In this document: positions 6,586 to 21,498 of the stretch, one piece after another
Layout: each line of letters starts with the position of its first letter
Position numbering within the stretch: position 1 is the first letter of the stretch
Source: a virus
DNA: 21,498 nucleotides
IMG/VR virus record: IMGVR_UViG_3300025860_000106
Span: 1-21,498 of that record
Reading direction: 5' to 3' (one strand)
Position numbers and translations under genes: made by a program
Notes under the pieces: generated by a model
Seen by the model: the letters and a program-made list of their open reading frames with translations, nothing else
What the model was told of the DNA's origin: nothing
Databases searched by the model: none

Positions 6586-6618
6586 AAGGGCGGTCTTCGG
6601 ATCGCCCTTTTTCTTTTT
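6586..6618 (+). terminator. Intrinsic terminator with UUCG tetraloop
   Basis: AAGGGCGGTC (6586-6595) pairs with GATCGCCCTT (6600-6609) around TTCG, a very stable tetraloop, followed by TTTTTCTTTTT (6608-6618). It closes the ssDNA-binding protein and endonuclease I pair. The next gene starts 14 nt later at 6632 with its own Shine-Dalgarno (AGGGAAGC). Confidence 0.92.
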
Positions 6619-6631
6619 AAGGGAAGCAATA

Positions 6632-7153: not shown

Positions 7154-8733
7154 ATGAACAAGAAGAGAGCACTTTTGTGTCTCATGAAGCATGTGACGCC
7201 TGTGGGTCATCGGATGCAAACAGCCTCTACTCTGATGGACACAGCTTTTGCTTCAGCTGTCAGAAACGTACACCAGCTGACGGGGAACAGAAGCCCAGCG
7301 AAAAGCCAAAGATAGACACCAACTTCCTGACTGGTGATTTCATGGAGTTGAGGTCTCGTAGGCTGACTGAAGAGACATGCCGTAAGTTCGGATACTTTGT
7401 TACCAAGAACAGCAAAGGCGAACCAATTCAAGTGGCTAACTACAAGGATGCCAAAGGCACAATCACAGGCCAGAAGATACGAACAAAAGACAAAGACTTC
7501 CCGACCATTGGGAAGATCAATGGCCTCTTCGGTATGCACATGTGGACAGCTGGAAGGAAGATCGTGGTTTGCGAGGGCGAACTTGATTCCATGAGCGTAT
7601 CACAAATCCAACAGCATAAATTCGCCACAGTGTCTGTGAGAAATGGCGCACAGGGCGCAAAGAAAAACCTTCTGGAAAACATTGATTACCTTAATGGCTT
7701 CCAAGAGATAATCTTAATGTTTGATCAGGATGAAGCAGGGCGTAAGGCCGCTACAGAATGTGCTGAAGTTCTGCCAATTGGCAAAGTTAAGATTGCAGTG
7801 TTGCCTCACAAGGACGCCAATGAGTGTCTAGTCAAAGGTGAAGCTGGAGCAATCATCAGTGCAATTCATCAGGCCGCTGATTACAGGCCAGATGGCATAG
7901 TCCAGATGTCTGACATGCGTGAGACTGTTGCAACACCAGATGCTGAAAGCCCTTACAAGTATCCTTACCCAAGGTTGAACTTCATGACTAAAGGCATGAG
8001 GGGCATCACAACCCTTGTCAGTGGCTCTGGGTGTGGGAAGTCAACTCTAGTGCGCGAGATCGCCTATCATTTGCATATGACAGGCTCAACTGTAGGCATG
8101 TTGATGTTGGAGGAAAACACCAAGCGAACTTCGCAGGGGCTAGTAGGACTCCACATAAACAAGAACATCGTCATTGATCCAGAGGCCGCGACAGTAGATG
8201 AGGTAAAAGCTGGTTTTGATGACTTGGTGTTAAATGGCGAAATCTACTTATTTGATCATGTGGGCACGTTTGACTTAGATATTATTTGTTCTCGCATAAG
8301 ATACATGAAGCACGGCCTCGGCTGTGATGTCGTCTTTTTAGATCACATTAGTATTCTCGTAAGTTCGTATGCTGGAGCCTCTGACAACGAGAGGGTTCTG
8401 ATAGATCACATAATGCACACGTTAACTACTTTATGTGTCGAATTGGATTTAGCTCTAGTTCTTGTGTCCCACCTCAAGAGGCCAAAGTCTGAACGAGGTC
8501 ATGAAGGTGGCGACAAAGCCCAGCTGTCACAGCTTCGTGGAAGCCATAGCCTAGCACAGCTGGCTTGGTTCTGTATCGCCTTGAATGTGGATGAGGAAGA
8601 CCCCACGTCAGGCAAAAGACAACTTACTATCCTAAAAAACAGACACACTGGTTTTCTGGGGCAAGCAGATACGCTCCAGTACAATTCAGAGACAGGCAGA
8701 CTAACGGCTGTCGATGATAACTTCGGCTTCTAA
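7150..8733 (+). CDS. Bifunctional DNA primase-helicase, T7 gp4-like
   Basis: Unwinds DNA as a hexameric 5'-3' helicase and makes RNA primers for lagging-strand synthesis. Domains in order: an N-terminal Cys4 zinc finger (Cys15, Cys18, Cys34, Cys37); the TOPRIM primase core with CEGELD (Glu142) and FDQDEAG (Asp192, Asp194); a linker; then a RecA-type helicase domain with Walker A GSGCGKS (292-298) and Walker B DVVFLDHIS. The C-terminus, DDNFGF, is an acidic tail with terminal Phe like that of T7 gp4, which docks on DNA polymerase. At 527 aa it is slightly shorter than T7 gp4A (566). The start overlaps the upstream stop; AAAGGAACGAAC precedes it. No clear internal start for a zinc-finger-less short form was seen. 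Confidence 0.96.
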   Translation: MNEQEESTFVSHEACDACGSSDANSLYSDGHSFCFSCQKRTPADGEQKPSEKPKIDTNFLTGDFMELRSRRLTEETCRKFGYFVTKNSKGEPIQVANYKDAKGTITGQKIRTKDKDFPTIGKINGLFGMHMWTAGRKIVVCEGELDSMSVSQIQQHKFATVSVRNGAQGAKKNLLENIDYLNGFQEIILMFDQDEAGRKAATECAEVLPIGKVKIAVLPHKDANECLVKGEAGAIISAIHQAADYRPDGIVQMSDMRETVATPDAESPYKYPYPRLNFMTKGMRGITTLVSGSGCGKSTLVREIAYHLHMTGSTVGMLMLEENTKRTSQGLVGLHINKNIVIDPEAATVDEVKAGFDDLVLNGEIYLFDHVGTFDLDIICSRIRYMKHGLGCDVVFLDHISILVSSYAGASDNERVLIDHIMHTLTTLCVELDLALVLVSHLKRPKSERGHEGGDKAQLSQLRGSHSLAQLAWFCIALNVDEEDPTSGKRQLTILKNRHTGFLGQADTLQYNSETGRLTAVDDNFGF

Positions 8734-8776
8734 GCCACCCCCCAACCCCAAACATTAGTAAAGCAAAGGAACACGT

Positions 8777-9070
8777 ATGCGTGGTTTATCAAGCACGTCT
8801 CGCGAGGCGTATGCAAACACAGATTTAACTAGAAACACAAGAATGGTCTTTGATGTCATTCAAGCCGCTGGCGACAAAGGTTGCATCAGTGCACAAGTAC
8901 AGCTTGCACTCAAGCACATGCCATATGGTTCAATCACGAACCACTTCAAATGGCTCAAAGACGCTGGGCTTATCACAGTCATTGGTAAGCGAAAAAGTCC
9001 CTATGGGCGCAACCAACAAATTTTCAAAGCAACGAGGCAGATCAATGCCCAAGGGGAGTTATTTCGATGA
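8777..9070 (+). CDS. Small winged-helix-like protein, 97 aa
   Basis: The 97-residue protein reads like a compact winged helix-turn-helix: a first helix (RMVFDVIQAAG), then ISAQVQLALKHMPYGSITNHFKWLKDAGLITVIG with the helix-turn-recognition-helix pattern, and a basic wing (GKRKSPYGRNQQIFKA, about 74-89). This suggests DNA binding, either as a phage regulator or as a replication accessory, given its place between primase-helicase and MazG. The family is not recognised with certainty. ATG 8777 has CAAAGGAACACG upstream. The stop overlaps the next ATG (9067) as ATGA. The 43-nt gap upstream (8734-8776) is C-rich and shows no terminator. Confidence 0.65.
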   Translation: MRGLSSTSREAYANTDLTRNTRMVFDVIQAAGDKGCISAQVQLALKHMPYGSITNHFKWLKDAGLITVIGKRKSPYGRNQQIFKATRQINAQGELFR

Positions 9071-9429
9071 ACACTACAGGAATCCATGAATACACAATGA
9101 ATGAATACCAAGCTGATGCGGCTAAAACGATGATCTACAAGTGGAAGACGATCTACCCTGCATTGGGTCTCGCTAACGAGGCTGGCGAGGTATTGGGAAA
9201 AATCAAAAAGCTAATTCGTGATCAGGATGTAACCTTTGATGGCATGGACACAATCCCAGCGCAGAAGAAAGCTGAGATATGCGATGAGCTAGGTGACGTG
9301 CTCTGGTACATCGCGGCACTCTCAAAAGACCTCGGTTTAACTCTTAATCAGGTAGCGGCAATGAACCACGAAAAGCTGACATCTCGCCAGAAACGTGGTG
9401 TCTTGAAGGGCTCTGGTGATAAGCGATGA
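9067..9429 (+). CDS. mazG: MazG-like nucleotide pyrophosphohydrolase
   Basis: Predicted all-alpha NTP pyrophosphohydrolase that hydrolyses (d)NTPs or alarmones to monophosphates and pyrophosphate. The metal-binding pattern is clear: Glu38 and Glu41 in LANEAGE, then Glu74 and Asp77 in CDELGDVLWY, with the usual helix spacing. The length (120 aa) suits a single-domain MazG. Such genes are common in marine phages and have been proposed to affect ppGpp or clean nucleotide pools; which applies here cannot be told. It is coupled to the preceding gene and to DNA polymerase (overlaps of four bases at both ends), so it is co-expressed with replication. A second in-frame ATG near codon 11 (EYTMNEY) is a possible alternative start. 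Confidence 0.88.
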   Translation: MNTTGIHEYTMNEYQADAAKTMIYKWKTIYPALGLANEAGEVLGKIKKLIRDQDVTFDGMDTIPAQKKAEICDELGDVLWYIAALSKDLGLTLNQVAAMNHEKLTSRQKRGVLKGSGDKR

Positions 9430-11195
9430 GTCGGTGGGGCTTTGATTTAGAGAGCAATGGCCTCCTAGATACCATTCATACTATCTGGTGCATTGTCTGC
9501 CGTGAGGTGGACACTGGCGAGGTACGCACGTTTAACCCAGATCAGATCGAGGACGCACTTGAGCTACTAGCGAATGCTGATGAGATCATTGGTCACAATA
9601 TAATAGACTACGACATACCAGCGATACAGATTGTATTCCCTGAGTGGTCAACTAAGGCCAAGGTAACTGATACTTTAGTTCTCTCGCGCCTGATACATGG
9701 CGACATGTTTAATGAGGATGCTGAACGCAACTTCAGTGTCGCTAAGTTCCCAAAGAAACTCTGGGGAAGCCACAGCCTAAAGGCTTGGGGTCTTCGCCTT
9801 GGTGACTTCAAAGATGACTACGATGGTGGGTGGGAAGCCTATAGTGAAACTATGCTTTCATACTGCGTTCAAGATACTCAGGTTACTGATACGTTATACA
9901 AGAAGTTGATGAAGACTGAGCCTACTCAGAAGTCTATCGACCTTGAGCATCGTATGGCTTCTATCTGCCGTGAGATTGGCAACAATGGATGGACTTTTGA
10001 TGAGAAGAAAGCTGGTGAACTCTATGCTTATCTAGCTCAACAAAGGCACACCATTGAGGAAGACTTGAAGGAACTGTTTCCATCTTGGGAAGTGACTGAA
10101 GACTTCTATCCTAAAGTCAATAACAAGGCGCGTGGGTATGTCAAAGGTGAGTTGTTTGTTAAGTCTAAGACAGTCTACTTTAACCCAGCTTCTCGCGTCC
10201 ACATTCAGAAGTGCTTAGTCGATAAGTACAAGTGGCGTCCCAAAGAGTTCACACCGAATGGTCAAGCTAAGATCGATGAGAAAATACTAAATTCTCTTCC
10301 GTATCCAGAGGCCAAAAGGTTAGCGTCTTTCTTCCTCTTGCAAAAGAGGATCGGGATGCTGGCAGAGGGCAGTGCCGCATGGATGAAGCGATGCAGTCCT
10401 GATGGCAGACTACGCCATAGGCTTAACAGTAATGGATGTGTCAGTTCGAGAATGACAGCCACCTCTCCGAATCTCCAGCAAATTCCGTCTGCTAACTCAC
10501 CCTATGGAAAAGAATGCCGTGAACTATTCACAGCACCAAAGGGCTGGGTCATCTGCGGTACTGACCTTTCTGGAATCGAAATCCGCCTGATGGCTTCTTA
10601 CTTACATCCTTATGATGGCGGTGAGTATGCGAAGGTAGTCGTGGATGGTGACATACACAGCTACAACCAGAAAATGACTGGGCTTGCCAGCCGTGATCTC
10701 TCGAAACGCTGGCTCTATTCCACGCTTTATGGTGGAGGTGATCAGTTGATTGGGGCTATCGCTGGCGGTGGTGCTAAGAGGGGCAAACAACTCAAGGACA
10801 ACTTCGATAAGAATGTCCCAGCGTTTGCTACTTTAAAGAAGAACCTAAAGACAGCGGCTTCAAGGGGCTACATCAAAGGTTTGGATGGGCGCAAATTAAG
10901 GGTCAGATCGGAGCATCGTTGCCTCTCACAATTACTCCAGTCAGCTGGGGCGATAGTGGCGAAACAGTGGCTCATGATGACCTACGACACAATCAAATCA
11001 AAATATGGCGAGGACGCTTTCATAATGGGCATGATCCATGACGAAATGCAGATCGCTTGCAAAACAAAGGAGATAGCCGATGAAGTCGGGTGTATCGCTG
11101 GAAGAATGGCACAAGAAGCTGGGGTTGCTCTCGGACTTAACATTACCACTGCGGCAGAATATTCCGTGGGCGCAACTTGGGCTGACACACATTGA
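9426..11195 (+). CDS. Family A DNA polymerase with 3'-5' exonuclease domain, T7 gp5-like
   Basis: Replicative DNA polymerase. The N-terminal proofreading domain shows Asp7 and Glu9 (FDLESNGL) and a later YCVQDTQVT motif. The polymerase domain shows motif A GTDLSGIEIR (Asp380), motif B Arg423-x3-Lys427-x3-Tyr431 ending in Tyr435-Gly436, and motif C MIHDEMQ (His538, Asp539, Glu540). At 589 aa it is shorter than T7 gp5 (704). Tyr431 corresponds to Phe762 of E. coli Pol I and Tyr526 of T7; Tyr at this site is typical of virulent T7-like phages. T7 gp5 uses host thioredoxin for processivity; no thioredoxin-binding loop could be delimited here by eye. The start overlaps the mazG stop (ATGA). The 3' end carries an out-of-frame overlapping gene from 11080. 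Confidence 0.97.
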   Translation: MSRWGFDLESNGLLDTIHTIWCIVCREVDTGEVRTFNPDQIEDALELLANADEIIGHNIIDYDIPAIQIVFPEWSTKAKVTDTLVLSRLIHGDMFNEDAERNFSVAKFPKKLWGSHSLKAWGLRLGDFKDDYDGGWEAYSETMLSYCVQDTQVTDTLYKKLMKTEPTQKSIDLEHRMASICREIGNNGWTFDEKKAGELYAYLAQQRHTIEEDLKELFPSWEVTEDFYPKVNNKARGYVKGELFVKSKTVYFNPASRVHIQKCLVDKYKWRPKEFTPNGQAKIDEKILNSLPYPEAKRLASFFLLQKRIGMLAEGSAAWMKRCSPDGRLRHRLNSNGCVSSRMTATSPNLQQIPSANSPYGKECRELFTAPKGWVICGTDLSGIEIRLMASYLHPYDGGEYAKVVVDGDIHSYNQKMTGLASRDLSKRWLYSTLYGGGDQLIGAIAGGGAKRGKQLKDNFDKNVPAFATLKKNLKTAASRGYIKGLDGRKLRVRSEHRCLSQLLQSAGAIVAKQWLMMTYDTIKSKYGEDAFIMGMIHDEMQIACKTKEIADEVGCIAGRMAQEAGVALGLNITTAAEYSVGATWADTH

Positions 11196-11460
11196 GAAGA
11201 GTGAATACTTAGAGAACTTAATACTTCTTTTTGTAATCATAGATCGAGGTTGGCGAAAGCCGTTCACTGTCAAAAGTGACTTCGCAAGAGTTGGAGCACT
11301 TCACGTTGCCATTGCGGCAAGTGAGGGCTTCATCACCACACAATTAGATGAAGATAGCTGGGGCAATCGTTGGTTCGTGACCCCAGATGGACAGGATATT
11401 CATGAAGAAATCAGCAGTACACTTAAAGAAGTCATTTACAAAACCCACACTCATCATTGA
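11080..11460 (+). CDS. Hypothetical protein overlapping the 3' end of DNA polymerase, 126 aa
   Basis: The 126-aa ORF begins inside the polymerase gene in another frame. ATG 11080 has a very good Shine-Dalgarno, AAAGGAGA (11066-11073), with 7 nt after GGAG, while no ATG, GTG or TTG codon occurs in this frame between the polymerase stop and the conserved part. I therefore take the long form, giving a 116-nt overlap. The body has a hydrophobic start (ENLILLFVIIDRGW) and a conserved-looking KSDFARVGALHVAIAASEGFITT segment followed by RWFVTPDG, resembling small winged-helix-like proteins seen in marine phages. Function unknown. The 3' end overlaps the exonuclease gene by 59 nt. The N-terminal ~38 residues, constrained by the polymerase frame, may be poorly conserved. 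Confidence 0.65.
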   Translation: MKSGVSLEEWHKKLGLLSDLTLPLRQNIPWAQLGLTHIEKSEYLENLILLFVIIDRGWRKPFTVKSDFARVGALHVAIAASEGFITTQLDEDSWGNRWFVTPDGQDIHEEISSTLKEVIYKTHTHH

Positions 11461-12169
11461 TGGGGACTTATTCCTATTTAAAGCCGCAGTTGCGGTTGAG
11501 GAAGAGATCGACTGGGGAGATGACATATGGTCGTTATCAAGCGACCTCAAGGCCGCAAAGAAACTTTTCAAATCAACAATAGATGGTTTCAAGAAAGAGT
11601 TAGTTGTCAAAGATGTAGTCTTGACAGTCTCTGGTCAAAACAATTTCCGTAAGGAGATACTAGACACGTACAAGGGTGGACGAAAGAAAGTCCGAAAGCC
11701 CGTTGGGTACAAAGCACTCGTTGAGTGGGCGATGGCAGAATACGAGAGCATTCTTGTGGACTGCTTAGAGGCCGATGATGTCATGGGCATCATGGGCTCG
11801 ATGCCAAACACTGAGGCCATCATTGTCAGCGATGACAAGGACATGAAGACAATCCCCTGTCGTCTATTTAGACCACAGGCGAATGAACGTCTGGTTATCA
11901 GTGACATGGAAGCCAATAAGAACTTCCTCATCCAAGCCCTCATGGGTGACATGACCGATGGTTATGGTGGGTGTCCAAAAGTAGGCATTAAGACAGCCGA
12001 AAAAATACTAGGCAACCGCCCAACTTGGGATGCTGTCGTCAATCAATATCAAAAAGAAAATCTAACAGCTGACTACGCGCTGACACAGGCTCGTATGGCT
12101 CGCATTTTGCGCTGTCAGGACTGGGACGATGAAAAAGGAGAGGTCATATTATGGAAACCATCAAGATAG
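11402..12169 (+). CDS. 5'-3' exonuclease, T7 gp6-like (FEN/PIN fold)
   Basis: Removes RNA primers and degrades host DNA from 5' ends. The acidic residues of the FEN/PIN active site are visible: Asp20 and Asp22 (LIIDGDLFLF), Glu123, Asp125 and Asp126 (LEADDVMGI), Asp144, Asp145 and Asp147 (VSDDKDMK), then Asp183 and Asp186. A helix-hairpin-helix-like DNA-binding segment GYGGCPKVGIKTAEKIL spans 187-203. I chose ATG 11402 (255 aa), with AGGA in ACAGGATATTC just upstream, over ATG 11387, which has no Shine-Dalgarno and adds only MDRIF. It overlaps the preceding gene by 59 nt and the DUF3310 gene by 19 nt. Position after DNA polymerase equals T7 gene 6 after gene 5. Confidence in function is high, in the exact start moderate. 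Confidence 0.92.
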   Translation: MKKSAVHLKKSFTKPTLIIDGDLFLFKAAVAVEEEIDWGDDIWSLSSDLKAAKKLFKSTIDGFKKELVVKDVVLTVSGQNNFRKEILDTYKGGRKKVRKPVGYKALVEWAMAEYESILVDCLEADDVMGIMGSMPNTEAIIVSDDKDMKTIPCRLFRPQANERLVISDMEANKNFLIQALMGDMTDGYGGCPKVGIKTAEKILGNRPTWDAVVNQYQKENLTADYALTQARMARILRCQDWDDEKGEVILWKPSR

Positions 12170-12405
12170 ATGTCGTCAACAAACCACCGCATTACAACAC
12201 TGGGTCAATCGAGTGCATTGAGGCCATGCAAGCGATGGCTGATGGCTCACTGGTTTGGGGTCACAATGCCTACCTCTGGCAGAATGCTTTCAAGTACCTT
12301 TGGCGTTGGCCTTACAAAAAGAAACCCGTGGAAGATTTAAAGAAGTGCCGTTGGTACTTGGATCGCCTCATCACCCTCATTGAAGAAAAAGAAGAAACAC
12401 CATGA
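12151..12405 (+). CDS. DUF3310 protein (related to T7 gp1.7 nucleotide-kinase family)
   Basis: An 84-aa protein with the DUF3310 signature: VNKPPHYNTGSIECIEAM at the N-terminus, then AFKYLWRWPYKKKPVEDLKKCRWYLDRLI. The same domain occurs in T7 gp1.7, reported as an unusual nucleotide kinase without a Walker motif. This protein is little more than the bare domain, so kinase activity should not be assumed. Position between the exonuclease and the ribonucleotide reductase fits a role in nucleotide supply. ATG 12151 has AAAGGAGAGG upstream inside the exonuclease gene (19-nt overlap), and its stop overlaps the reductase ATG by four bases. Confidence 0.87.
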   Translation: METIKIDVVNKPPHYNTGSIECIEAMQAMADGSLVWGHNAYLWQNAFKYLWRWPYKKKPVEDLKKCRWYLDRLITLIEEKEETP

Positions 12406-14360
12406 ATAATTTATTACCAACAGACTACCAAGCATTCATCCACACCAGCCGTTATGCGCGTTGGATAGAGGAAGAGGGAAGGCGTGAAAGCTGGACTGAA
12501 ACTGTCTCTCGTTACATGGACAACGTGGTTAGGCCTCGCATCCATGAGCATGTTGCCAGTGAAATAGAAGAGGCAATCTTAAACCTTGATGTGATGCCAT
12601 CTATGAGAGCATTGATGACAGCTGGCAAGGCTTTATCGAGAGACAATACAAGCGGATATAATTGCTCGTACACACCTATCGACCACGTTCGCTGTTTTGA
12701 TGAGGTGTTGTTCATTCTCCTTTGTGGAACTGGTGTAGGCTTTTCGGTTGAGAAGAAATATACAAACAGCCTTCCATTAGTACCCAGACTTACAGCTGGT
12801 GCTTGCTTAATTGAAGTAGAAGACAGCAAAGAGGGCTGGGCGTCTGCTTATAGAGAACTAATCTCAGAACTGTATGCTGGAAGGATACCATCTTGGGACA
12901 CATCTAAAGTTAGACCAGCTGGTGCACGTTTGGAAACATTTGGTGGAAGAGCATCAGGTGCACAGCCTTTAGTTGAACTGTTTGAGCACACTATTGAAAC
13001 CTTCAAGAAAAAGCAGGGTAGCAAGCTATCACCTTTGGATGTCCACAGCATCATGTGCATGATAGGCTCCATAGTGATCGTCGGTGGAGTGCGACGTTCA
13101 GCGATGATCAGCCTAAGTGACCTATCGGACGATGAGATGAGGACAGCTAAGTCAGGCGAATGGTACATCGACAACCCACACCATGCTCTTGCTAACAACT
13201 CAGTGGCATTCGAAAGTAAGCCCAGCGGTGTTGACTTCATGAAGGAATGGGCATCACTAGCGGCCTCTGGCTCTGGTGAACGTGGTATCTTCAATAGACA
13301 GGCGGCTAGAGACAAAGCTAAACGTGAAGGCATAAGAGATCACATGTGGGAGTTTGGCACGAATCCATGTTCGGAAATCGTGTTATTAGGGCAACAGCTT
13401 GAGGAATATACCGATGCTGAAGGCGAGACTAAGACCAGAGGTATCGTTGGAACTGGTGGTCAGTTCTGCAATCTTACAGAAGCTGTTATTAGAGCCACAG
13501 ATACTGAAGGCGAAATCGCTAACAAGGTGCGTCTTGCGGCTATCTTAGGTACAATCCAAGCCACCTTAACTCACTTCCCGTACCTACGTGATTGCTGGAA
13601 GAAAAATACTGAACGTGAGGCATTGCTTGGCGTGAGTATGACAGGCATCATGGACTGTACTCTGACAAATGGTAAGGAAGCTGGTCTTGAAGAAAGGCTC
13701 ACTAAGTGGCGACAGTTTGCTGTGGACATCAATGAGTATTACGCAAAAGAACTAGGCATCAACAAGGCGGCGGCAGTTACTGCGGTTAAGCCAAGTGGTA
13801 CAGTTAGTTCTTTAGTTGATAGTTCTAGTGGGATTCATGCGAGACACTCTGACTACTACATCAGGACTGTGAGGGGTGACAACAAAGACCCACTAACTCA
13901 GTTCCTCATAAACCAAGGAGTAACATCAGAACCTTGCGTTATGAAGCCAGAGCAAACGACTGTCTTTAGCTTCCCGATGAAAGCACCAGAAGGCTCAGTC
14001 ACACGTCATGATATGACAGCGATTGAACAGCTGGAGATGTGGCTAATGTACCAACGTCACTACACTTGCCATAAGCCATCTGTGACTGTTTCAGTTGGGG
14101 ATGACGAATGGGCAGAGGTAGGTGCGTTTGTCTACAAGCACTTCGATGAGATGTCTGGTGTCAGCTTCTTACCTCGCTTTGACCACACCTACGAACAAGC
14201 ACCTTATCAAGACTGTACTCAGGAAGAATACGAGGTGGCATCGTTTGCCATGACCAATATTGACTGGACTGATCTATCACACTTCGAAACTGAAGACACA
14301 ACCAAAGGCTCACAAACATTAGCCTGTACTGGCGGCGTCTGTGACCTCGTAGACATCTAA
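12402..14360 (+). CDS. nrdJ: Class II (adenosylcobalamin-dependent) ribonucleoside-triphosphate reductase
   Basis: Reduces ribonucleotides to deoxyribonucleotides using a radical generated from adenosylcobalamin, so oxygen is not needed but host B12 is. Sequence resembles the monomeric RTPR type (Lactobacillus leichmannii): MPSMRALMTAGKAL, GYNCSY with Cys88 and GTGVGFSVE. NPCSEI carries the thiyl-radical Cys323 with Asn321 and Glu325, and the partner Cys356 lies in GQFCNLTE. The C-terminal redox pair is Cys642 and Cys647 (CTGGVC), which would be reduced by thioredoxin-like donors. At 652 aa it is shorter than the 739-aa bacterial enzyme, as is usual for phage versions. It is coupled to DUF3310 at the start and followed by a terminator. 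No class I NrdA/B and no class III NrdD is present here. Confidence 0.95.
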   Translation: MNNLLPTDYQAFIHTSRYARWIEEEGRRESWTETVSRYMDNVVRPRIHEHVASEIEEAILNLDVMPSMRALMTAGKALSRDNTSGYNCSYTPIDHVRCFDEVLFILLCGTGVGFSVEKKYTNSLPLVPRLTAGACLIEVEDSKEGWASAYRELISELYAGRIPSWDTSKVRPAGARLETFGGRASGAQPLVELFEHTIETFKKKQGSKLSPLDVHSIMCMIGSIVIVGGVRRSAMISLSDLSDDEMRTAKSGEWYIDNPHHALANNSVAFESKPSGVDFMKEWASLAASGSGERGIFNRQAARDKAKREGIRDHMWEFGTNPCSEIVLLGQQLEEYTDAEGETKTRGIVGTGGQFCNLTEAVIRATDTEGEIANKVRLAAILGTIQATLTHFPYLRDCWKKNTEREALLGVSMTGIMDCTLTNGKEAGLEERLTKWRQFAVDINEYYAKELGINKAAAVTAVKPSGTVSSLVDSSSGIHARHSDYYIRTVRGDNKDPLTQFLINQGVTSEPCVMKPEQTTVFSFPMKAPEGSVTRHDMTAIEQLEMWLMYQRHYTCHKPSVTVSVGDDEWAEVGAFVYKHFDEMSGVSFLPRFDHTYEQAPYQDCTQEEYEVASFAMTNIDWTDLSHFETEDTTKGSQTLACTGGVCDLVDI

Positions 14361-14366
14361 ATCAAC

Positions 14367-14408
14367 AAAAGCCCAACTAGCAGAAAGTTATCTAGCAGTT
14401 GGGCTTTT
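14367..14408 (+). terminator. Terminator after ribonucleotide reductase
   Basis: AAAAGCCCAACT (14367-14378) pairs perfectly with AGTTGGGCTTTT (14397-14408) over 12 bp, with an 18-nt loop that contains CTAG at both edges. Because the stem is flanked by A on one side and T on the other, it could stop transcription in both directions. It lies 6 nt after the reductase stop. Directly after it, TTGACA (14406-14411) resembles a -35 box, but no matching -10 was found. Confidence 0.88.
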
Positions 14409-14441
14409 GACAATCAAAACTAATGAAAACTGGAGAAGCAA

Positions 14442-14660
14442 ATGGACAGAGAAGAACTGTTATTGCTACAGCACATGTCTGTGGCAAAAGAAGAAAACAA
14501 AAGAATGCGTGAGATATTCAACATAAGAAAATATGCCGAGGGCGATCAATGGGAAGCCCAGCAAAACCGCAGGGCAACAGGTTCTAAGGGCGGCAAGAAG
14601 AACGCCCAGCGGCCTCCTCGGCCTTGGTGCAAGTCTGTGACTATATTGAGGGGGAAGTGA
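14442..14660 (+). CDS. Hypothetical basic protein, 72 aa
   Basis: A 72-aa protein with a helical N-terminal half (EELLLLQHMSVAKEENKRMREIF, possibly a short coiled coil) and a very basic C-terminal half (KGGKKNAQRPPRPW). This suggests nucleic-acid or anionic-partner binding, but no family is recognised. ATG 14442 is preceded by TGGAGAAGCAA, a leader also seen before other genes in this window. The stop is 4 nt before the zinc-ribbon gene, so both are probably co-translated. Confidence 0.6.
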   Translation: MDREELLLLQHMSVAKEENKRMREIFNIRKYAEGDQWEAQQNRRATGSKGGKKNAQRPPRPWCKSVTILRGK

Positions 14661-14664
14661 GCAC

Positions 14665-14868
14665 ATGCCCGAAATGAAAGACAGTGTGACCCACTGTCCA
14701 AAGTGTATCATAAAAACACAAATTATTGAGACCATCCCCCATTTCAAATATGGATACCCAACTAAGCGTAGGCAACGTCAGTGTCCTCAATGTGGCTTCC
14801 GAAGGACTACAATAGAAGTTCCAATAGAACAGGGGGATAAGTATTTCTCATGTTCACAGTCGAAATAG
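14665..14868 (+). CDS. NrdR-like zinc-ribbon protein, 67 aa
   Basis: The 67-aa protein carries two CxxC pairs, CPKC (residues 11-14) and CPQC (40-43), which would bind one zinc. The segment between and after them, TKRRQRQCPQCGFRRTTIEV, closely resembles the zinc-ribbon of NrdR (pattern RRRRQC..C..RFTT.E), the bacterial repressor of ribonucleotide reductase genes. The ATP-cone domain that follows in NrdR is missing, so nucleotide sensing in the usual way is not possible. Its gene lies two places after nrdJ, which makes a link with reductase control attractive but unproven. ATG 14665 has GGGGGAAG upstream with good spacing. The gene overlaps the following one by 19 nt. An unrelated phage zinc ribbon is the alternative reading. 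Confidence 0.65.
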   Translation: MPEMKDSVTHCPKCIIKTQIIETIPHFKYGYPTKRRQRQCPQCGFRRTTIEVPIEQGDKYFSCSQSK

Positions 14869-15080
14869 AATCAAACTATACCAAGATTGTTACTGTTGAT
14901 TCGGACGCTAAGTTTGAGGATGTCGAGATGTACCTTGAGGATAGCGGTACAGTTTTCATCAGACAGTATTGTGAGGAACTGAGGGAATTTCAGCTAATAT
15001 CCCTTAATTATAAGCAAGTTTTAGACCTCATGTCGTCACTGGACTCAGAGGATGGTGTCTATATTACAGCTGTAAAGTGA
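14850..15080 (+). CDS. Hypothetical acidic protein, 76 aa
   Basis: A 76-aa acidic protein with alternating beta-like and helical stretches (TVEIESNYTKIVTVDSD, then KFEDVEMYLED). No cysteine-rich or membrane motif is present and no family is recognised. ATG 14850 lies inside the zinc-ribbon gene (19-nt overlap) and has AGGGGGAT upstream at workable distance. It is the last + strand gene before the non-coding spacer that separates the two convergent blocks. Real by start signal and continuity, but its role is unknown. Confidence 0.6.
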   Translation: MFTVEIESNYTKIVTVDSDAKFEDVEMYLEDSGTVFIRQYCEELREFQLISLNYKQVLDLMSSLDSEDGVYITAVK

Positions 15081-15087
15081 GGTGTGG

Positions 15088-15132
15088 GGAGTGCAGGGAA
15101 GTCAATTCAAGATTGTCTAGCTACTGCACTCC
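15088..15132. repeat. Inverted repeat in the convergence spacer
   Basis: GGAGTGCAG (15088-15096) and CTGCACTCC (15124-15132) are perfect 9-bp inverted arms 27 nt apart. As RNA this is a stem with a large loop and no U-tract; as DNA it could be a protein-binding site. The same spacer (15081-15308, 228 nt without a gene) holds a shorter pair, GTATCA (15201-15206) with TGATAC (15230-15235), just before the terminator. No significant ORF was found on the + strand of this spacer. Confidence 0.5.
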
Positions 15133-15148
15133 TAATGTCACTATAAAG
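15133..15148 (+). promoter_or_regulatory. Promoter-like motif with T7 core in the convergence spacer
   Basis: TAATGTCACTATAAAG contains TCACTATA, identical to the core of the T7 promoter (ACTCACTATAG), and 12 of 16 bases agree with a motif after the RNA polymerase gene (5480-5495). If active it would make a transcript that meets the strong terminator at 15236-15280 after about 90-130 nt and would otherwise run antisense into the lysis genes. One T7-like core is suggestive only, since the promoter of this phage is unknown. Confidence 0.25.
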
Positions 15149-15235
15149 TAACAAAAGTATCTAAACCTATACCACAGTATATGTCAACACCCATACGATA
15201 GTATCAGGCAGAACCCACGAACCTCATAATGATAC

Positions 15236-15280
15236 AAAAAACACAGATTGCAATACCCAAGGCGGCAATCTGTGTTTTTT
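15236..15280. terminator. Bidirectional terminator between convergent gene blocks
   Basis: AAAAAACACAGATTGC (15236-15251) pairs perfectly with GCAATCTGTGTTTTTT (15265-15280), a 16-bp stem with a 13-nt loop, A-rich on one side and T-rich on the other. It therefore acts as an intrinsic terminator when read from either strand. It lies between the last + gene (stop 15080) and the last - gene (stop 15309), exactly where convergent transcription has to be separated. Confidence 0.93.
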
Positions 15281-15308
15281 GATTTAGTGGCGACATAAGA
15301 ATGCCGTT

Positions 15309-15389
15309 TTAGACTCTTTTGATAATTAAAATAGCCAACATACCGATCATTATAGCGTCGGTAATCATTACTGGAAATCCAGAGATCAT
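15309..15389 (-). CDS. 26-aa membrane micropeptide downstream of the endolysin
   Basis: A 27-codon ORF (26 residues) starts at ATG 15387-15389, 23 nt after the endolysin stop, with a convincing Shine-Dalgarno, AAGAAAGGTGG, on the - strand. After a short N-terminus (MISGFPVM) the peptide is one hydrophobic helix, AIMIGMLAILII, ending in a basic KRV. This gives a single-pass membrane peptide, perhaps N-out. It is the last gene before the bidirectional terminator and belongs to the lysis transcript by position. Possible roles are a holin-like or antiholin-like peptide, or a membrane partner of the spanin candidate. It has no cysteine, so it is not a lipoprotein outer-membrane spanin. No family recognised. 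Confidence 0.5.
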   Translation of the reverse strand: MISGFPVMITDAIMIGMLAILIIKRV

Positions 15390-15412
15390 GGATACCACCT
15401 TTCTTTTTGGCC

Positions 15413-15922
15413 TTAGACCATACTTAATGCTTGCTCTAAGGTTTCTTTGTTGCGCCTAGACCAACCACGCCCGAAGTGTTTGTAGTCTGATAGGCTTTCA
15501 TAAAACGCCTGTCTTACTGTGTAGATGTAGTCGATGATAAACTCTGGGTCTTTCTCAGCGACCAGCTGGAGTGTCTTACCTCCAATGTAGCCATCGGGGT
15601 CAGCCGCAACTGCACGTTGCACAGCTTTGGATGGTCTACTCCTACCCGAATTCACACACCAGTCCAGAACCGCCCAATCCAAGCCCGATGGAAGATCATC
15701 GAAGCGAATAGGGTCGGCGTAGTTCTTGCGGTAAATAGGAGCGACATCATCAGGTGTCAGGTCGCGCATCTCTTGTTCAGTAGACTCGCGGCCTATCCAT
15801 TCGTTATAGACACGCTGGGTTACACCTAAATTAGTCATCCCCCCGTTATCCATAGGGTCATTTACGAATCCTCCCTCGTGTTCAAGGATCATCTCTAGGC
15901 ATTTATCAAAATTCTCTTTCAT
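15413..15922 (-). CDS. Endolysin, glycoside hydrolase family 108 muramidase
   Basis: Cuts the glycan strands of peptidoglycan at the end of infection. The 169-aa protein has the N-terminal GH108 signature: HEGG with the presumed catalytic Glu16, then NDPMDNGGMTNLGVTQ. A C-terminal peptidoglycan-binding-type region begins near SKAVQRAVAADPDGYIGG and continues as helices to the end. There is no signal peptide, so release needs the holin encoded two genes upstream on the same strand. The start overlaps the end of the preceding TM/coiled-coil gene by 17 nt; AAAGGACAGCGGAAAC lies upstream. This differs from T7, whose lysozyme is a Zn amidase; none of that type is seen in the window. Confidence 0.93.
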   Translation of the reverse strand: MKENFDKCLEMILEHEGGFVNDPMDNGGMTNLGVTQRVYNEWIGRESTEQEMRDLTPDDVAPIYRKNYADPIRFDDLPSGLDWAVLDWCVNSGRSRPSKAVQRAVAADPDGYIGGKTLQLVAEKDPEFIIDYIYTVRQAFYESLSDYKHFGRGWSRRNKETLEQALSMV

Positions 15923-16271
15923 GTTTCCGCTGTCCTTTACTCACTTCTCTGGCAAGATATTTCATCTCGTTCTCAGTCAGTGCTATGCGTTGCTTAATGC
16001 TATTCATCTCACCGATTGAAGCGGTCATAGCTGACATGTCACTCCAGACATCTTCCATATCTTCTTTGATACGGACGAGTTCATTCTGGTTCTCTTTGAC
16101 ATCACGTTTGGTATTGATTGCATCCTCTAGTGCCATCCGTGAACCTAATGTGCTCACAGTTTCTTCTAAGGATGATATGGTTGTAGCCTGTTGGCTGACC
16201 CACCAGATACCACCAGCCAATTGGATCACCATAGCGAATATAAGCGTCAATGGTATTTTTAAGTTATCCAT
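15906..16271 (-). CDS. Single-TM coiled-coil protein, candidate inner-membrane spanin
   Basis: A 121-aa protein with one N-terminal transmembrane helix (about residues 7-25, PLTLIFAMVIQLAGGIWWV), followed by a long, charged, coiled-coil-prone region (about 30-120, for example SSLEETVSTLG and ENEMKYLAREVSKG). An N-terminal anchor with a periplasmic coiled coil is the layout of inner-membrane spanins (Rz, T7 gp18.5), and the gene lies between holin and endolysin. No lipoprotein outer-membrane partner with a lipobox was found, so the role is inferred. ATG 16271 overlaps the holin stop (TAATG) and has AAAGGT upstream. A second protein of the same design is encoded on the other side of the holin. 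Confidence 0.65.
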   Translation of the reverse strand: MDNLKIPLTLIFAMVIQLAGGIWWVSQQATTISSLEETVSTLGSRMALEDAINTKRDVKENQNELVRIKEDMEDVWSDMSAMTASIGEMNSIKQRIALTENEMKYLAREVSKGQRKHEREF

Positions 16272-16642
16272 TAGTTGTTTACCTTTTTTACTTTTTCCAG
16301 AGTCCGTAAGCCGCCTAAACCGAGCATTCCCATAAGGACGGGCATCATGACTGACATGTCTGCCTGTGGGACTATTATGTCTAAGGGTGCTAACAACGGA
16401 CTAACCAGAAAGTTTATGCCCATGCCCATCACACAGCACCAAGCAGTAGCTGGACGCCAACTAGATTGAAACCAATTACCTTTGGCCTCTTCTTTGTTCA
16501 CTGCTAACTGGGCGAGTGACAGTTCTTGGGCGTGTCTTTCGGACATCGTAGCTATCTCATGAGCGAGTGCCGCCGCTTGGTCTTTGTCTGGGATAAACTT
16601 ATCCAGCAGACCAGCGACAGGACTGATCAACGACTGTATCAT
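16271..16642 (-). CDS. Holin, GTA 3TM-type
   Basis: Forms inner-membrane lesions that let the endolysin reach the cell wall. The 123-aa protein has the layout of the GTA_holin_3TM family. A helical N-terminus (about 1-50) is followed by EEAKGNWFQSSWRPATAW, which matches the family's conserved Trp-Arg-Pro entry to the first clear membrane helix (about 62-85). A second helix spans about 96-115 (VMMPVLMGMLGLGG), then a basic tail KVKKVNN. ATG 16642 has AGGAAA upstream. Gene order on the - strand is TM/coiled-coil, holin, TM/coiled-coil, endolysin, a compact lysis cassette. Family match is by motif and context; no dual start suggesting an antiholin was evident. Confidence 0.85.
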   Translation of the reverse strand: MIQSLISPVAGLLDKFIPDKDQAAALAHEIATMSERHAQELSLAQLAVNKEEAKGNWFQSSWRPATAWCCVMGMGINFLVSPLLAPLDIIVPQADMSVMMPVLMGMLGLGGLRTLEKVKKVNN

Positions 16643-16643
16643 T

Positions 16644-16910
16644 TTATTTCCTGTCTGCCATCTTTTCGACAGCTTTTCGAATTGCTTTTATGTTTTCATC
16701 GATCCTAGCTGTAGCTATATCATTCATGTGGACGTTATCTTCGACTTCACCCAGACGCATAGTCACTGTGTCTATGGACTGAGTGTTTCTGTCGATGTCG
16801 GACATCATCATACTGACTGTCCAGACGATTGCTCCAGCTTGTGTGATTAGACCGAGTAGGAGGGTGGCAGGGACACTTTTGGATAAGTGCCAACCTTCCC
16901 CCTCATTCAC
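16644..16910 (-). CDS. Small TM plus coiled-coil protein upstream of the holin, 88 aa
   Basis: An 88-aa protein with one transmembrane segment (about 13-36, VPATLLLGLITQAGAIVWTV), followed by a helical, coiled-coil-like stretch with heptad-like Ile/Val/Leu spacing (DIDRNTQSIDTVTMRLGEVEDNV) and a charged end. The start codon is GTG 16910, overlapping the preceding stop as GTGA; AAGGCG lies upstream. No in-frame ATG occurs near the N-terminus before the membrane segment. Same architecture as the protein encoded at 15906-16271 although the sequences differ. It may be a holin partner, antiholin or spanin subunit; the family is not identified. Confidence 0.7.
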   Translation of the reverse strand: MNEGEGWHLSKSVPATLLLGLITQAGAIVWTVSMMMSDIDRNTQSIDTVTMRLGEVEDNVHMNDIATARIDENIKAIRKAVEKMADRK

Positions 16911-17308
16911 AGCCAGATACGCCTTGGTACTTCTGGTTCTACCCCATGAAGTGTGTCCAAGGCTTCTACAGTTTCACGCATAGCATCACCCACCAAACGT
17001 ATGTTCACATGCCATCCATCAAGGGCAGTCATCTCGACATCTATAAGACCATCCTCGGTTGTAACTGGTTCACCTGATTGATCGTAAAGTGTACCGACGA
17101 CATCCACAGCGTAGTCTGCCGTATTAGGGACAAAGTAAGGATCGCCCTCAACCTGAGTGCTTTCCTCGCCTGTCTCTTCGTCAACTACAGTGCTGTAGTC
17201 TTGCTTGTAGAAATCGTGTAATACAGTTTCCATGTCAGCTTCTGAGGCCAACTTTAGATAGAAGTCAGTCTTAATGATCTCCATCTCTAGTTCTAATTGT
17301 TCACTCAT
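16907..17308 (-). CDS. Conserved small phage protein after the fibre genes, 133 aa
   Basis: A 133-aa acidic protein with beta-rich pattern (IDVEMTALDGWHVNIRLVG) and a C-terminal EPEVPRRIWL. A similar ending (ProXArgXTrp, after a W-H-V-N strand) is familiar from short uncharacterised proteins next to tail or fibre genes in marine phages, but I cannot name a family. ATG 17308 has AGGAG with 8-nt spacing, overlapping the end of the fibre gene by four bases (ATGA). No membrane segment. A role as fibre chaperone or small virion protein would suit the position but is inferred only. Confidence 0.7.
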   Translation of the reverse strand: MSEQLELEMEIIKTDFYLKLASEADMETVLHDFYKQDYSTVVDEETGEESTQVEGDPYFVPNTADYAVDVVGTLYDQSGEPVTTEDGLIDVEMTALDGWHVNIRLVGDAMRETVEALDTLHGVEPEVPRRIWL

Positions 17309-18942
17309 GTTGTTAGCTCCTGTAGCTGTGTATTAGTTAGTCTGCGAGGGTAGTATTTGATGGACTTGATGTGTCCGTTTAAGTAGCTTCCGAGATAAGA
17401 TTGATACCAGTTACCGAGTGCTAATCTGGTTATCCCAGACGGAACTGTTCCTGATATGTCAGGGGCTGGTGATGAACCATTAGAAGTAGCGGCGAAGTCA
17501 TCCTCGGCAAATGCCAAAGCAAATTTAACAAGTTCAGAAGTTGCGCCTCTATTACCACCAGCTATATCTGCCTGTGTACCACTATCCGTCCTAACATAAC
17601 CACGATGATTAGGAACGGTCATGTGCATTATCCTATTGTTAGGAGTGCCATCATGTAAAACAAAAGCACCAAACTGCTCGCTAAGAGGCTTGTTACTCTT
17701 GAACTCTACCAAAACAGTCCCTGCCTTATGGTTATACCCAAAGTCACTCACAGGAATAAAAGCAACATCTTTCGCCCTAGTAGCTGTGCTACCTGTTGTT
17801 GGGATGTATGACGTAGGAAAAGCACCAGTTTCTATTTGATGACCCCACATGTAAACACCAGAAGTTCCGTCACCTTGGAATCGTGCAATATCAAAAGTGT
17901 CTGCAGAGGGCATCAAAAATATTGAGGGGTAAGGGTTTACGGTTGTTGCTGTGTATGTGACAGAGCAACGCCACCACCCATTACCTACGTCTTCTATATG
18001 ACCAGTAGCACCACTGTTTATAGCAATGTCAGGGAGTGAGCTATTTCCATTAGATAAATCAAAGTCATAATTAACATGACCGCCCATATTTGACATGCGA
18101 AGTCTTACATGATTATGCCCTGCATTCTTGAGATAAACTGAGTAAGTTTCCTTAGTACCAACAGTTGCATATGACCCATGATAACCAACGTAGCAATAAT
18201 CAAAATTATTCGTATGTGTGATTTTGTCAGAACCGTAAGCCCCTGTTGGATTAACTACACTAGAGTCAACAGTTTTAACGTGAGAACCATTACCATAAGC
18301 AGTATATGTATCTGTACTAGTTGGGTAGTAGTTAGTCCTAGCTTCTTCAATCAGTAAACCTTTGACTGCACCAGTAGTATCGTACTCAATGCGAGGTACG
18401 TTGTTACCGTGGTTAAAAAGTTGGAGTGTGCCATCAGCTTGGTCGAAGAAGACTTCTTTGACTGATACGTTGTCGAAGTTTGTAGCGCCAGTATTACTGC
18501 CTTTATAAAGACGTAGTTGAGAGGTTGTCGCTGTCGCTGTAAAATTAAATGCGTATGACCTAACAGCTCCTCTTGTGTAAAAAAACCTCTCTATGTAGGA
18601 GTAATCAGAGTTGTTTAGGTACATTCCGACCATTCTAGCACCTCCACCACCTTGCGTATCGTTTGTAACACTAAATTTAACTTGATAAGTGTTTCCGACG
18701 ACAAGGCCAGAGACTACTTGCCTTGCCCATCCGTTATAGGCTGTGTGACCTAATTTTATAGTTCCATTGTCAAACTCGCTCGACGAAGTGCCATGTGAAG
18801 TCGACCAACCAGAAATATCAGTATCAAACGTACCATTAGTAACCAACTCTGAGCCGTAGCTAATTTTCCTTAAAGCTGTACCACCTGATGCTCTGGTGAA
18901 TGTTATTAAGTCTGTTGCACTATTAAAATTCTTAGTACCCAT
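17305..18942 (-). CDS. Modular fibre/lectin-like protein 2, likely host recognition, 545 aa
   Basis: Predicted virion surface protein. Modules in order: a carbohydrate-binding-like beta-sandwich (about 32-163) opening ELVTNGTFDTDISGW and closing FDNVSVKEV; a second module (about 183-390) from GLLIEEARTNYY to GDGTSGVYMWG and TSYIPTTGSTATRA; and a C-terminal concanavalin/LamG-like part (about 400-545) ending with SIKYYPRRLTNTQLQEL. The long version would start with GTG 18951, only 1 nt after a GGAG; I prefer ATG 18942, which puts that GGAG 8 nt upstream and 1 nt past the preceding stop. The modules are homologous to those in the neighbouring larger protein but in another order. The lectin-like fold suggests glycan binding; no enzyme motif is seen. 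Confidence 0.8.
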   Translation of the reverse strand: MGTKNFNSATDLITFTRASGGTALRKISYGSELVTNGTFDTDISGWSTSHGTSSSEFDNGTIKLGHTAYNGWARQVVSGLVVGNTYQVKFSVTNDTQGGGGARMVGMYLNNSDYSYIERFFYTRGAVRSYAFNFTATATTSQLRLYKGSNTGATNFDNVSVKEVFFDQADGTLQLFNHGNNVPRIEYDTTGAVKGLLIEEARTNYYPTSTDTYTAYGNGSHVKTVDSSVVNPTGAYGSDKITHTNNFDYCYVGYHGSYATVGTKETYSVYLKNAGHNHVRLRMSNMGGHVNYDFDLSNGNSSLPDIAINSGATGHIEDVGNGWWRCSVTYTATTVNPYPSIFLMPSADTFDIARFQGDGTSGVYMWGHQIETGAFPTSYIPTTGSTATRAKDVAFIPVSDFGYNHKAGTVLVEFKSNKPLSEQFGAFVLHDGTPNNRIMHMTVPNHRGYVRTDSGTQADIAGGNRGATSELVKFALAFAEDDFAATSNGSSPAPDISGTVPSGITRLALGNWYQSYLGSYLNGHIKSIKYYPRRLTNTQLQELTT

Positions 18943-18943
18943 A

Positions 18944-21427
18944 TCATTCACTCCAATCTAATACTGTGAAACTGCTTGTGGATGAACCATCGAATGTTAA
19001 TTGTAGTGATGGTTCAGTGGATGGTTCAGTTGCTTCAATTATACCTGTGTCTGTTAAGTCTTCATCCCACACACGGAACTGTCCGATTGTACCCATAAAG
19101 ATGTAGCCAAGTTCTAAGTTAGTAGATGACAAGTCAGGCAGTTCTGTAGGGGTTGTGTTGGCTGTTAGTAGTGTGCCTTCGTGCGCACCATTAAGGAACG
19201 TAGAGCCATAACGACCAGCAAAGTTGAATGGTACGTTAATGTTTGGGCTGTAAACATTGTTTGCGCCAATAACCTCATCATAGCCAGAAGTTGCCTGTTG
19301 TTGTATGAACCTTGGTTGGCCTGTTCTAGTACCTGCCGTTGAAATTATGTTGTAGAGGATGTTACTTGAATCTAGCCTCCAACGCCACGGCAAGGCTGTG
19401 TTATTACCACCATCTTCAGCATAAGTCACCTTACCATCCATCTGTATAGACAAAGCAAGAGGGTTAATTTCTTTGGCTGATACGTTGTCCCAAAGGTTAT
19501 AATCCCCAGCATTACCAAAACCCCCAGCAGTAGCAAAGAAGTTTTGGAGAGTTAGTTTAGTGGTGTGACTAACTGCTTTAACAATAATTGAATATGTTTT
19601 ACTTACTGATGAGATGTCAGATCCACCACTATACAAAGCTGTACCAAACTCAAACTGTCCATCATGAACTGTGACCCTAGCATCGAGAGTACCGCCATGA
19701 ATAAAATCTGCTGTAATTAAATATAATTTACCTGAGACAGTAGGGAAGTTGGCGCTTGCAGTTCCCAAAAAGCTGGTGTCAGTAACTTTTAATCTGTTAG
19801 AGTCCACGGATAATGTAGAATTAGAAGAAGTCCAATCATTTGTGTTACTATCAAACGTACCATTTGTAATTAACTCAGTGCCTGTAGTCTCAACAGGTGT
19901 AGGATAAGGCAAGTTAGCCGCAGGGACTGTTAGTGTCTCAGCCGCCCTTGTTACAGTTGATCCTGATGTTGGGATGTAACTTGATGGGGTTGCGCCAGCT
20001 TCTAGTTGTACCCCTGCTACGTCAATAGCTTTTACAGAACCAAATGATGTACCTGTAGTAGTCGCACTTGTAGATAGGTAGAAAAATAAGTCATGATTAC
20101 GAGAGCTATCGTTTTCTGAGATTGTTCCGTAAAACCTACGCCATCCGCCACCTACATCAACCACACCTTGGGTAAGAAATGCAGTCGAAACAACTGTGCC
20201 ATCATAATGCCCTGTAGTCAGTACACCATTTGACGTGTTAATACATACCCCAATTATGTCAGGTCCAGTATTATATCTCACATGAATAAATGGAACAGTT
20301 GAACCCGACTTGTAATAGAAAGATAAACAATGAGTACCAGAACCACTTGTAGCAAAGGATAGATTATAAATCCTATTAGTAGTGCTTGTCGCACTAGTGT
20401 TAATCCGCACAGCCCCATTTGGTATGCCGTTCCAATCCGCCCTTGTCGTGTTAGACCATATTCCGCCAGTCCAACTACCACCACTAATATCTGAAGGATG
20501 TGCCAAGTTAGTCCTAGCTTCGCTCTCATGGAGGATGCCTTCGTTAACCCAAGCAGAACCATTGTAGACGTGATGTCCAACTCTTGGTAGGTAAACAGCA
20601 GAACTTGTTGCGGTTGGAACGTAGCTGTTGCCTGTTGCTGAGTTGTTTACCATGCCACCTAAGTCACTGCGGTAAACGTGTGCGCCCCAAGCATAGATGC
20701 CCGAAGTTCCATCTCCTACAAGTGCAGGGCTTGGGTTAACAGGATCACCAGACTGGTTAAAAGGCAAGATAGCCGTCCAAATTACATTGTCTGCTCTAGT
20801 AATATCAACAGTGCATAAATACCAACCGTCCCCAACAGAAGTAATAGTGGGATTTTCAACTAAACCATTAGTACCGTAGGTTACACCACTTGCGAGTGTT
20901 CCTGATGTTAAGTTGAAAGTCTTAGCTGAATGATCATTCCCATTATCGGTAATCATTAGTGAAACATGATCCCATTCTGCGGCTTTAGCATAAACAGCTA
21001 GTGTTCTCCCTGCTTGTGATTTTCGTTGTGCAACAAAACGTTTATGATGACCAGAATCCTCAATTAATTTAGCGGCAGTTAATGTACCATCTGGTGCAGT
21101 AGTAGCGTTTGAAACTGCTGTAATACCGTAGTCGTCCCAATACGAATGAGTAAAATCCTCAGAGTACGGCATTATGTTATGTGGAGCCCATTTGAGAAGA
21201 CCATCTGAGTCTACCATCGTAGCTTGTCCTGCGCGAGCATGTGTTACACTGTTAGCTAGAGTGCTATCTGCACCGCCTGTTCTGTACGTGTTACCGATGA
21301 AGTCCAATGCTAACTTTGGATCAAAGCCGCCTACTGCATAAACTGATAAGGCGGCTATTGATGTTGAAGACAGAGGCCACCCGAAGGTAGGCCATAGTTT
21401 CATAGTGTCTAAATTAAACTGCGTCAT
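18944..21427 (-). CDS. Modular fibre/lectin-like protein 1, likely host recognition, 827 aa
   Basis: Large predicted virion or tail surface protein. After an N-terminal lead (1-83, with ALDFIGNTYRTGG), four beta-rich modules follow. A (about 84-271) runs from NIMPYSEDFTHSYW to GDGTSGIYAWGAH and NSYVPT. B (about 304-495) runs from EARTNLAHPSD to VQLEAGATPSSYIPT. C (about 517-660) runs from ELITNGTFDSNTNDW to WDNVSAKEI. D (about 663-800) is LamG-like, with GSTFLNGAHEG and FMGTIGQFRVWDEDL. A short tail (801-827) ends DWSE. A and B are paralogous within the protein; B, C and D recur in the smaller fibre protein. ATG 21427 has AGGAGAAG upstream. These modules are typical of marine phage receptor-binding or decoration proteins; the ligand is unknown. 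Confidence 0.8.
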   Translation of the reverse strand: MTQFNLDTMKLWPTFGWPLSSTSIAALSVYAVGGFDPKLALDFIGNTYRTGGADSTLANSVTHARAGQATMVDSDGLLKWAPHNIMPYSEDFTHSYWDDYGITAVSNATTAPDGTLTAAKLIEDSGHHKRFVAQRKSQAGRTLAVYAKAAEWDHVSLMITDNGNDHSAKTFNLTSGTLASGVTYGTNGLVENPTITSVGDGWYLCTVDITRADNVIWTAILPFNQSGDPVNPSPALVGDGTSGIYAWGAHVYRSDLGGMVNNSATGNSYVPTATSSAVYLPRVGHHVYNGSAWVNEGILHESEARTNLAHPSDISGGSWTGGIWSNTTRADWNGIPNGAVRINTSATSTTNRIYNLSFATSGSGTHCLSFYYKSGSTVPFIHVRYNTGPDIIGVCINTSNGVLTTGHYDGTVVSTAFLTQGVVDVGGGWRRFYGTISENDSSRNHDLFFYLSTSATTTGTSFGSVKAIDVAGVQLEAGATPSSYIPTSGSTVTRAAETLTVPAANLPYPTPVETTGTELITNGTFDSNTNDWTSSNSTLSVDSNRLKVTDTSFLGTASANFPTVSGKLYLITADFIHGGTLDARVTVHDGQFEFGTALYSGGSDISSVSKTYSIIVKAVSHTTKLTLQNFFATAGGFGNAGDYNLWDNVSAKEINPLALSIQMDGKVTYAEDGGNNTALPWRWRLDSSNILYNIISTAGTRTGQPRFIQQQATSGYDEVIGANNVYSPNINVPFNFAGRYGSTFLNGAHEGTLLTANTTPTELPDLSSTNLELGYIFMGTIGQFRVWDEDLTDTGIIEATEPSTEPSLQLTFDGSSTSSFTVLDWSE

Positions 21428-21498
21428 ATCTGGCTTCTCCTGATCCTTTTGCCCATAGTCCTCCGCCTAATTCAGATAGAGAAGGAACTGAAACAGGT
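21414..21498 (-). CDS. C-terminal end of an unidentified gene (partial)
   Basis: An open frame enters from the right edge on the - strand and ends with TAA at 21414-21416, overlapping the start of the large fibre gene (ATG 21425-21427) by 14 nt. The visible 27 residues contain SELGGGLWAKGSGEARYDAV, Gly-rich and without a recognisable domain. Continuous reading and the overlap typical of this block support a real gene. Its start and identity lie outside the window; by position it should belong to the structural genes. Confidence 0.55.
   Translation of the reverse strand, partial: PVSVPSLSELGGGLWAKGSGEARYDAV

Follow-up and report, generated by a model that had tools for sequence, protein, structure and literature searches.

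The cobaviruses, phages of marine Rhodobacteraceae, carry two gene arms that meet at a bidirectional terminator (PMC6775973), and a description of LUZ24-like phages also reports convergent gene sets with a bidirectional terminator (PMC3517423). In Xanthomonas phage Xp10, promoters of the phage polymerase lie upstream of the structural genes (PMC2248197, PMC4331800). The DNA analysed here, all 21,498 nucleotides of record IMGVR_UViG_3300025860_000106 (hereafter the window), is linear in IMG/VR and holds a T7-type RNA polymerase gene and two opposed gene arms. It represents about half of a two-armed genome of ~40-42 kb, the whole plan of which was read from relatives.

The Replication Arm

From left to right, the + strand encodes a tyrosine integrase (1943-2842; PHROG 1 and 216, Pfam Phage_integrase), a T7-type single-subunit RNA polymerase of 870 aa (2864-5476; PHROG 414, E 7e-164; PF00940), a gp2.5-like ssDNA-binding protein, SSB (5611-6153; PHROG 112), an endonuclease (6092-6577; PHROG 945), a primase/helicase (7150-8733; PHROG 239), a family A DNA polymerase (9426-11195; profile match, nearest isolates marine Autographiviridae at 42-44%), an exonuclease (11387-12169; PHROG 107) and a class II (B12-dependent) ribonucleotide reductase (12402-14360; PHROG 367, Pfam RNR-II_ins_dom; 60-64% to roseophage enzymes). 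A reading of this DNA from its letters and open reading frames (the sequence-only reading) had described the + genes as following the T7 order, and comparison with HTVC019P, CRP-118 and LUZ100 bore this out. Between the endonuclease and the primase lies a short ORF of 173 aa that resembles a DNA methyltransferase (6632-7153; NPPY motif, PHROG 799); it was not seen at the corresponding place in the near-complete relatives.

The RNA polymerase profile aligns with T7 RNA polymerase over nearly the full length, and the motifs DGxxSGxQH, KR..M...Y and IHDSF are present. In a tree with six known phage polymerases, the protein and its relatives fall outside these as a separate clade (100/100 support) that sits on a long branch. 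The closest polymerase in the August 2025 phage collection is ~29% identical, no megablast match was obtained there, and a plasmid search gave distant polymerases only. A prophage search of bacterial genomes returned a single distant T7-type polymerase (25-29%; L231:9929-12655) on the Rhizobiales contig UCCA01000021.1, at a locus that is likely a prophage; since this was the only match, and a distant one, the search gives no host.

The Strand Switch and the Lysis and Tail Genes

The last + ORF stops at 15080, and according to the ORF calls all major genes from 15413 to 21427 are on the - strand. They comprise a GH108 endolysin (15413-15922; PHROG 315, PF05838), an unassigned ORF (15906-16271), a holin (16271-16642; PHROG 3427), small ORFs that follow the holin, and two tail proteins (17305-18951 and 18944-21427, both PHROG 5939). 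ORFs and profiles agree that the switch from the + replication block to the - fibre and lysis genes is exactly where it had been placed. The GC skew, positive up to the same spot at ~15 kb, is mostly negative beyond it, as two transcription units of long standing would lead one to expect. No capsid, portal or terminase gene lies in the window, so that the late arm is visible there in part and the rest was read from relatives.

A phage 99.4% identical to the window (G009) carries other tail genes past about window position 16909 (G009 from 12869, compared with window 16907-21427); the host-recognition part thus changes abruptly where the lysis cassette ends.

The Junction

An independent IMG/VR contig, 3300020165_000320, runs across the junction and matches window positions 3915-16909 at 99.4% identity; two further contigs align to the left part of the window at 98.8 and 99.4%. 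The reductase and endolysin genes are convergent in 71 of the 71 fetched loci that hold both, which by contig name correspond to ~54 contigs besides the window. Some of these contigs, for example G013 and G022, gave no match to the polymerase, and their DNA polymerase is distant, which indicates that this type of junction is wider than the polymerase lineage. The convergent layout is a fixed plan of an uncultured lineage, not a misassembly.

Between the two arms, at 15235-15281, lies an intrinsic terminator that reads on both strands. Its stem is a perfect 17 bp, formed by CAAAAAACACAGATTGC (15235-15251) and GCAATCTGTGTTTTTTG (15265-15281), with A6 on one flank and T6 on the other. Its predicted folding energies on the two strands are -23.8 and -25.3 kcal/mol (z -5.3 and -6.4), and none of 200 shuffles was as good. 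As far as structure goes, the claim of a perfect bidirectional terminator is upheld. A simple terminator scan did not list it because the loop is longer than the scan permits. In relatives, the terminator is kept with compensating changes (GATCG/CGATC, ACACTG/CAGTGT).

A second conserved structure (15081-15152, + strand) fills the space between the last + gene and the terminator. In it, 15088-15096 pair with 15124-15132 as a long stem, which is accompanied by an inner stem and by another, small hairpin. Compensating changes occur at one stem pair in 7 of 17 sequences and at two inner pairs in a single sequence; the element is more conserved than the adjoining coding DNA and is also found in G015, G016, G017, G022 and G023. 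Stem-loops of dissimilar sequence occupy this position in distant relatives, and Rfam gave no match for the element. The element could be a structure at the 3' end of the + transcript, or it could be a small RNA. A T7-like promoter had been guessed at 15133 (TAATGTCACTATAAAG); relatives have a hairpin there, GTTAC-loop-GTAAC, and the guess was dropped.

The Whole Genome Read from Relatives

Near-complete relatives measure 38-42 kb, and full maps were drawn for G001 and G014. One arm holds the early genes, integrase, polymerase, replication genes and reductase; the other holds lysis, tail, capsid, scaffold, portal, TerL, TerS and ejection-type genes. The polymerase and the portal are on opposite strands in all 11 records that have both (G001, G002, G003, G005, G006, G014, G015, G024, G025, G026 and G033; polymerase ~47-85% to that of the window). 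The sequence-only reading had proposed such a check on the strand of the flanking genes, and its outcome agrees with the two-armed layout. In the most distant subclade (polymerase 40-41%), collar and tail genes are opposite the polymerase too. The left flank of the window itself could be followed in L002, a 98.8% identical contig, which has - tail genes, then a divergent region, then the + genes.

The virion arm of G001 and G014 encodes a portal of PHROG 1216, a scaffold of PHROG 3927, a capsid of PHROG 1328 and TerL, and among isolates the portal is matched best by LUZ24-like phages, at ~29-31%. The description of this DNA as a T7-like phage with an inverted late arm could not be kept, as the virion arm of the relatives is of the LUZ24/phiEco32 kind. 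The expectation of one transcription direction, taken from T7, does not apply to such an arm because phages of the LUZ24/phiEco32 kind are two-armed anyway. As judged from these gene sets, the lineage probably arose by the joining of a T7/HTVC019P-type replication arm to a LUZ24/phiEco32-type virion arm.

For contrast, contig G012 (3300025880_000077; L213/L214) is a truly unidirectional T7-type phage. Its head, tail and terminase genes are of the T7 type (portal, capsid and terminase PHROG 449, 267 and 38) and share one strand with its replication and lysis genes. Its lysis cassette is that of the window (endolysin 78%, holin and neighbours). The same lysis module on the + strand of related genomes had been named as a sign against the layout. 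The cassette of G012 does sit on the strand of the replication genes, but the head, tail and packaging genes of this phage belong to another lineage and the finding stands. From these two lineages we infer that lysis cassettes move between one-direction and two-armed phages.

The near-complete contigs share one circular gene order but are opened at different points. Circularly permuted DNA would give this pattern, and so would the circular assembly of a genome with terminal repeats. Both ends of the G001 contig (L188:1-41 and L190:2149-2180) lie in the divergent region and carry tandem 10-base repeats, CATCTATAGT; a packaging or replication site may be nearby. G003 (L194-L196) has many broken frames, which are probably uncorrected long-read errors, and was used for layout only.

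A Pair of Candidate Promoters

A promoter-like motif, TAATACTTATGTCACCCCTAAGAAG (5474-5498, + strand), overlaps the stop codon of the polymerase gene and forms a 25-base block conserved in the clade. The window carries this one copy. Its partner was read on the - strand of L002 (3460-3484) with mismatches at 2 of 25 positions, ~60 bases to the left of window base 1. The sequence-only reading had predicted that a convergent layout would need phage promoters on both strands, and by sequence there are candidates on both. Among the genomes, the repeated motif measures 20-25 bp and the opposite-strand copy lies 660-891 bp upstream of the first virion gene. It is not palindromic, and its orientation always follows the direction of the arm ahead.

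In a scan of four full genomes with a matrix built from the post-polymerase copies only, the opposite-strand copies scored 20.1-27.5, compared with shuffled maxima of up to 18.2. A matrix-free test compared the post-polymerase region with the divergent region of each genome. Of the 12 genomes, 10 had their best match on the opposite strand, with 0-3 mismatches in 20 positions; the best on the same strand had 4-6. Shuffled sequences gave means of 4.4-5.8 mismatches and reached 2 once in G002, and 3 in G001 and G003. As shuffles sometimes come down to 2-3, the strength of the result is that the same word recurs from genome to genome, in the same place and orientation. The genomes are all of one lineage, and the motif tests are not independent of each other.

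Taken alone, the matrix-free test missed the pair in L278 and L276 (4 and 5 mismatches, shuffled minimum 4). This 41% subclade has another word, CTTCTACAACCCT, in two copies that flank the polymerase gene and a further copy on the other strand. The opposite-strand copy runs into ATAGGAGAGG, which resembles the start of a T7 promoter. The motif words thus vary between polymerase subclades and agree inside each genome, which is what a promoter changing with its polymerase would look like.

Copies of the motif number 2-3 per genome, few compared with T7. A repeat scan of this kind does pick up known promoters elsewhere (16 known sites in T7, 7 promoters in LUZ100), so that the low number here is real. 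Repeated 17-18-mers inside single genomes revealed no many-copy T7-like promoter set and were mostly coding noise; a third match to the motif, in the primase/helicase gene, was discounted as the codons for LVSHLKR. Sigma-70 and terminator scans gave counts near chance.

Proposed Transcription Plan

The window probably belongs to a temperate-looking marine podophage whose own polymerase would drive both arms from the oppositely directed motif pair. The two arms point away from each other at a single intergenic region, which lies immediately to the left of the window, and meet at the bidirectional terminator. Host polymerase probably starts the early genes. The phage polymerase would then recognise the motif behind its own gene and transcribe the replication arm, and from the opposite-strand copy in the divergent region it would transcribe the virion arm. 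The terminator at 15235-15281 may stop the converging units from colliding. The intrinsic-terminator-like hairpin between the polymerase and SSB genes (5554-5589, + strand) speaks against this plan, since it stands right behind the + motif and would have to be passed by the polymerase. In G002, G006 and G014, a sequence related to this hairpin also follows closely behind the capsid gene.

The phage polymerase might instead serve the replication arm only, with the virion arm left to a host RNA polymerase redirected by the phage and the opposite-strand motif serving something else. N4 is the precedent: its T7-family polymerase is encoded on the strand opposite the virion genes, and its late genes are transcribed by the host sigma70 polymerase (PMC4496689). 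We regard such a division as unlikely here. The opposite-strand motif matches the post-polymerase motif genome by genome, shifts with the subclade and is always directed into the virion arm, and the near-complete relatives are without a gene for a giant virion polymerase (the largest ORF of G001 is 1142 aa). Less probable again, and rather doubtful in our opinion, is that the repeated motif is an operator at which a lysogeny repressor would shut both arms and the polymerase gene. An integrase gene is present, and a MarR-like repressor has been proposed at the polymerase promoter of LUZ100 (PMC10134795), but the motif is non-palindromic and always oriented with the arm that follows it, and the end of the motif in one subclade is a start sequence like that of T7. 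Operator and promoter roles could also overlap.

A misassembled or chimeric contig, the dull explanation that had been offered for the convergent genes, is extremely improbable. The near-identical independent contig crosses the junction, the layout is identical in every relative tested, and the terminator and the adjoining structured element are conserved; we found no support for a chimeric junction.

Transcription of both arms from the opposed motifs can also be considered for the relatives as a group. With some reserve, we favour the view of a deep uncultured marine lineage in which one T7-type polymerase would use two opposed promoters that share one sequence, and in which promoter and polymerase would have changed in step from subclade to subclade. 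Several diverged candidate pairs of polymerase and promoter in one lineage would lend themselves to the study of how promoter recognition evolves and could be useful as orthogonal expression parts. A T7-type polymerase with its replication arm can be paired with a virion arm on the opposite strand; since such a polymerase is found here in a two-armed genome, transcription in one direction is not tied to it, and a T7-type polymerase on a marine contig does not by itself place the phage in the Autographiviridae.

Comparison with Known Systems

The replication arm is closest to Autographiviridae (HTVC019P, CRP-118, P-SSP7, LUZ100, T7), which have the same order of polymerase, SSB, endonuclease, primase, DNA polymerase and exonuclease, the integrase in the same order except in T7, a single-subunit T7-type RNA polymerase, and a DNA polymerase up to 44% identical. 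However, known members run essentially in one direction, in contrast with the two-armed lineage of the window, and their portal, capsid and terminase are of the T7 type whereas the relatives G001 and G014 carry other types.

The cobaviruses (Zobellviridae, Cobavirinae; Lentibacter phage ICBM2) share the opposed arms, the bidirectional terminator, which is rho-independent, and a class II ribonucleotide reductase in the replication arm, and direct terminal repeats are known in them; unlike the window, ICBM2 is without an annotated RNA polymerase gene. The LUZ24-like phages (Bruynoghevirus; Pseudomonas phages TL and tf) are alike in their convergent gene sets and bidirectional terminator and, as seen in the relatives of the window, in a portal ~29-31% identical and the same kind of scaffold and capsid. 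They differ in that TL has no annotated phage RNA polymerase and has host-type promoters annotated; LUZ24/phiEco32-like podoviruses in general are transcribed by the host polymerase and are not known to have a polymerase gene of their own, whereas the window carries one. HMO-2011 is also two-armed.

Xp10, compared by its published description, has a T7-like single-subunit polymerase together with leftward and rightward genes. It is a siphovirus with lambda-like virion genes. N4 (Schitoviridae) likewise combines a T7-family polymerase with a virion arm on the opposite strand, but it has a heterodimeric polymerase II and a giant virion polymerase where a single 870-aa polymerase is found here, and it uses host polymerase for late genes. 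No isolate or paper with the present combination was found in the collections and literature searched, a weak absence as most subscription journals are outside this coverage. The two-armed plan is thus known from cobaviruses and LUZ24-like phages, and a T7-family polymerase in a two-armed genome from N4 and Xp10; the present combination looks new.
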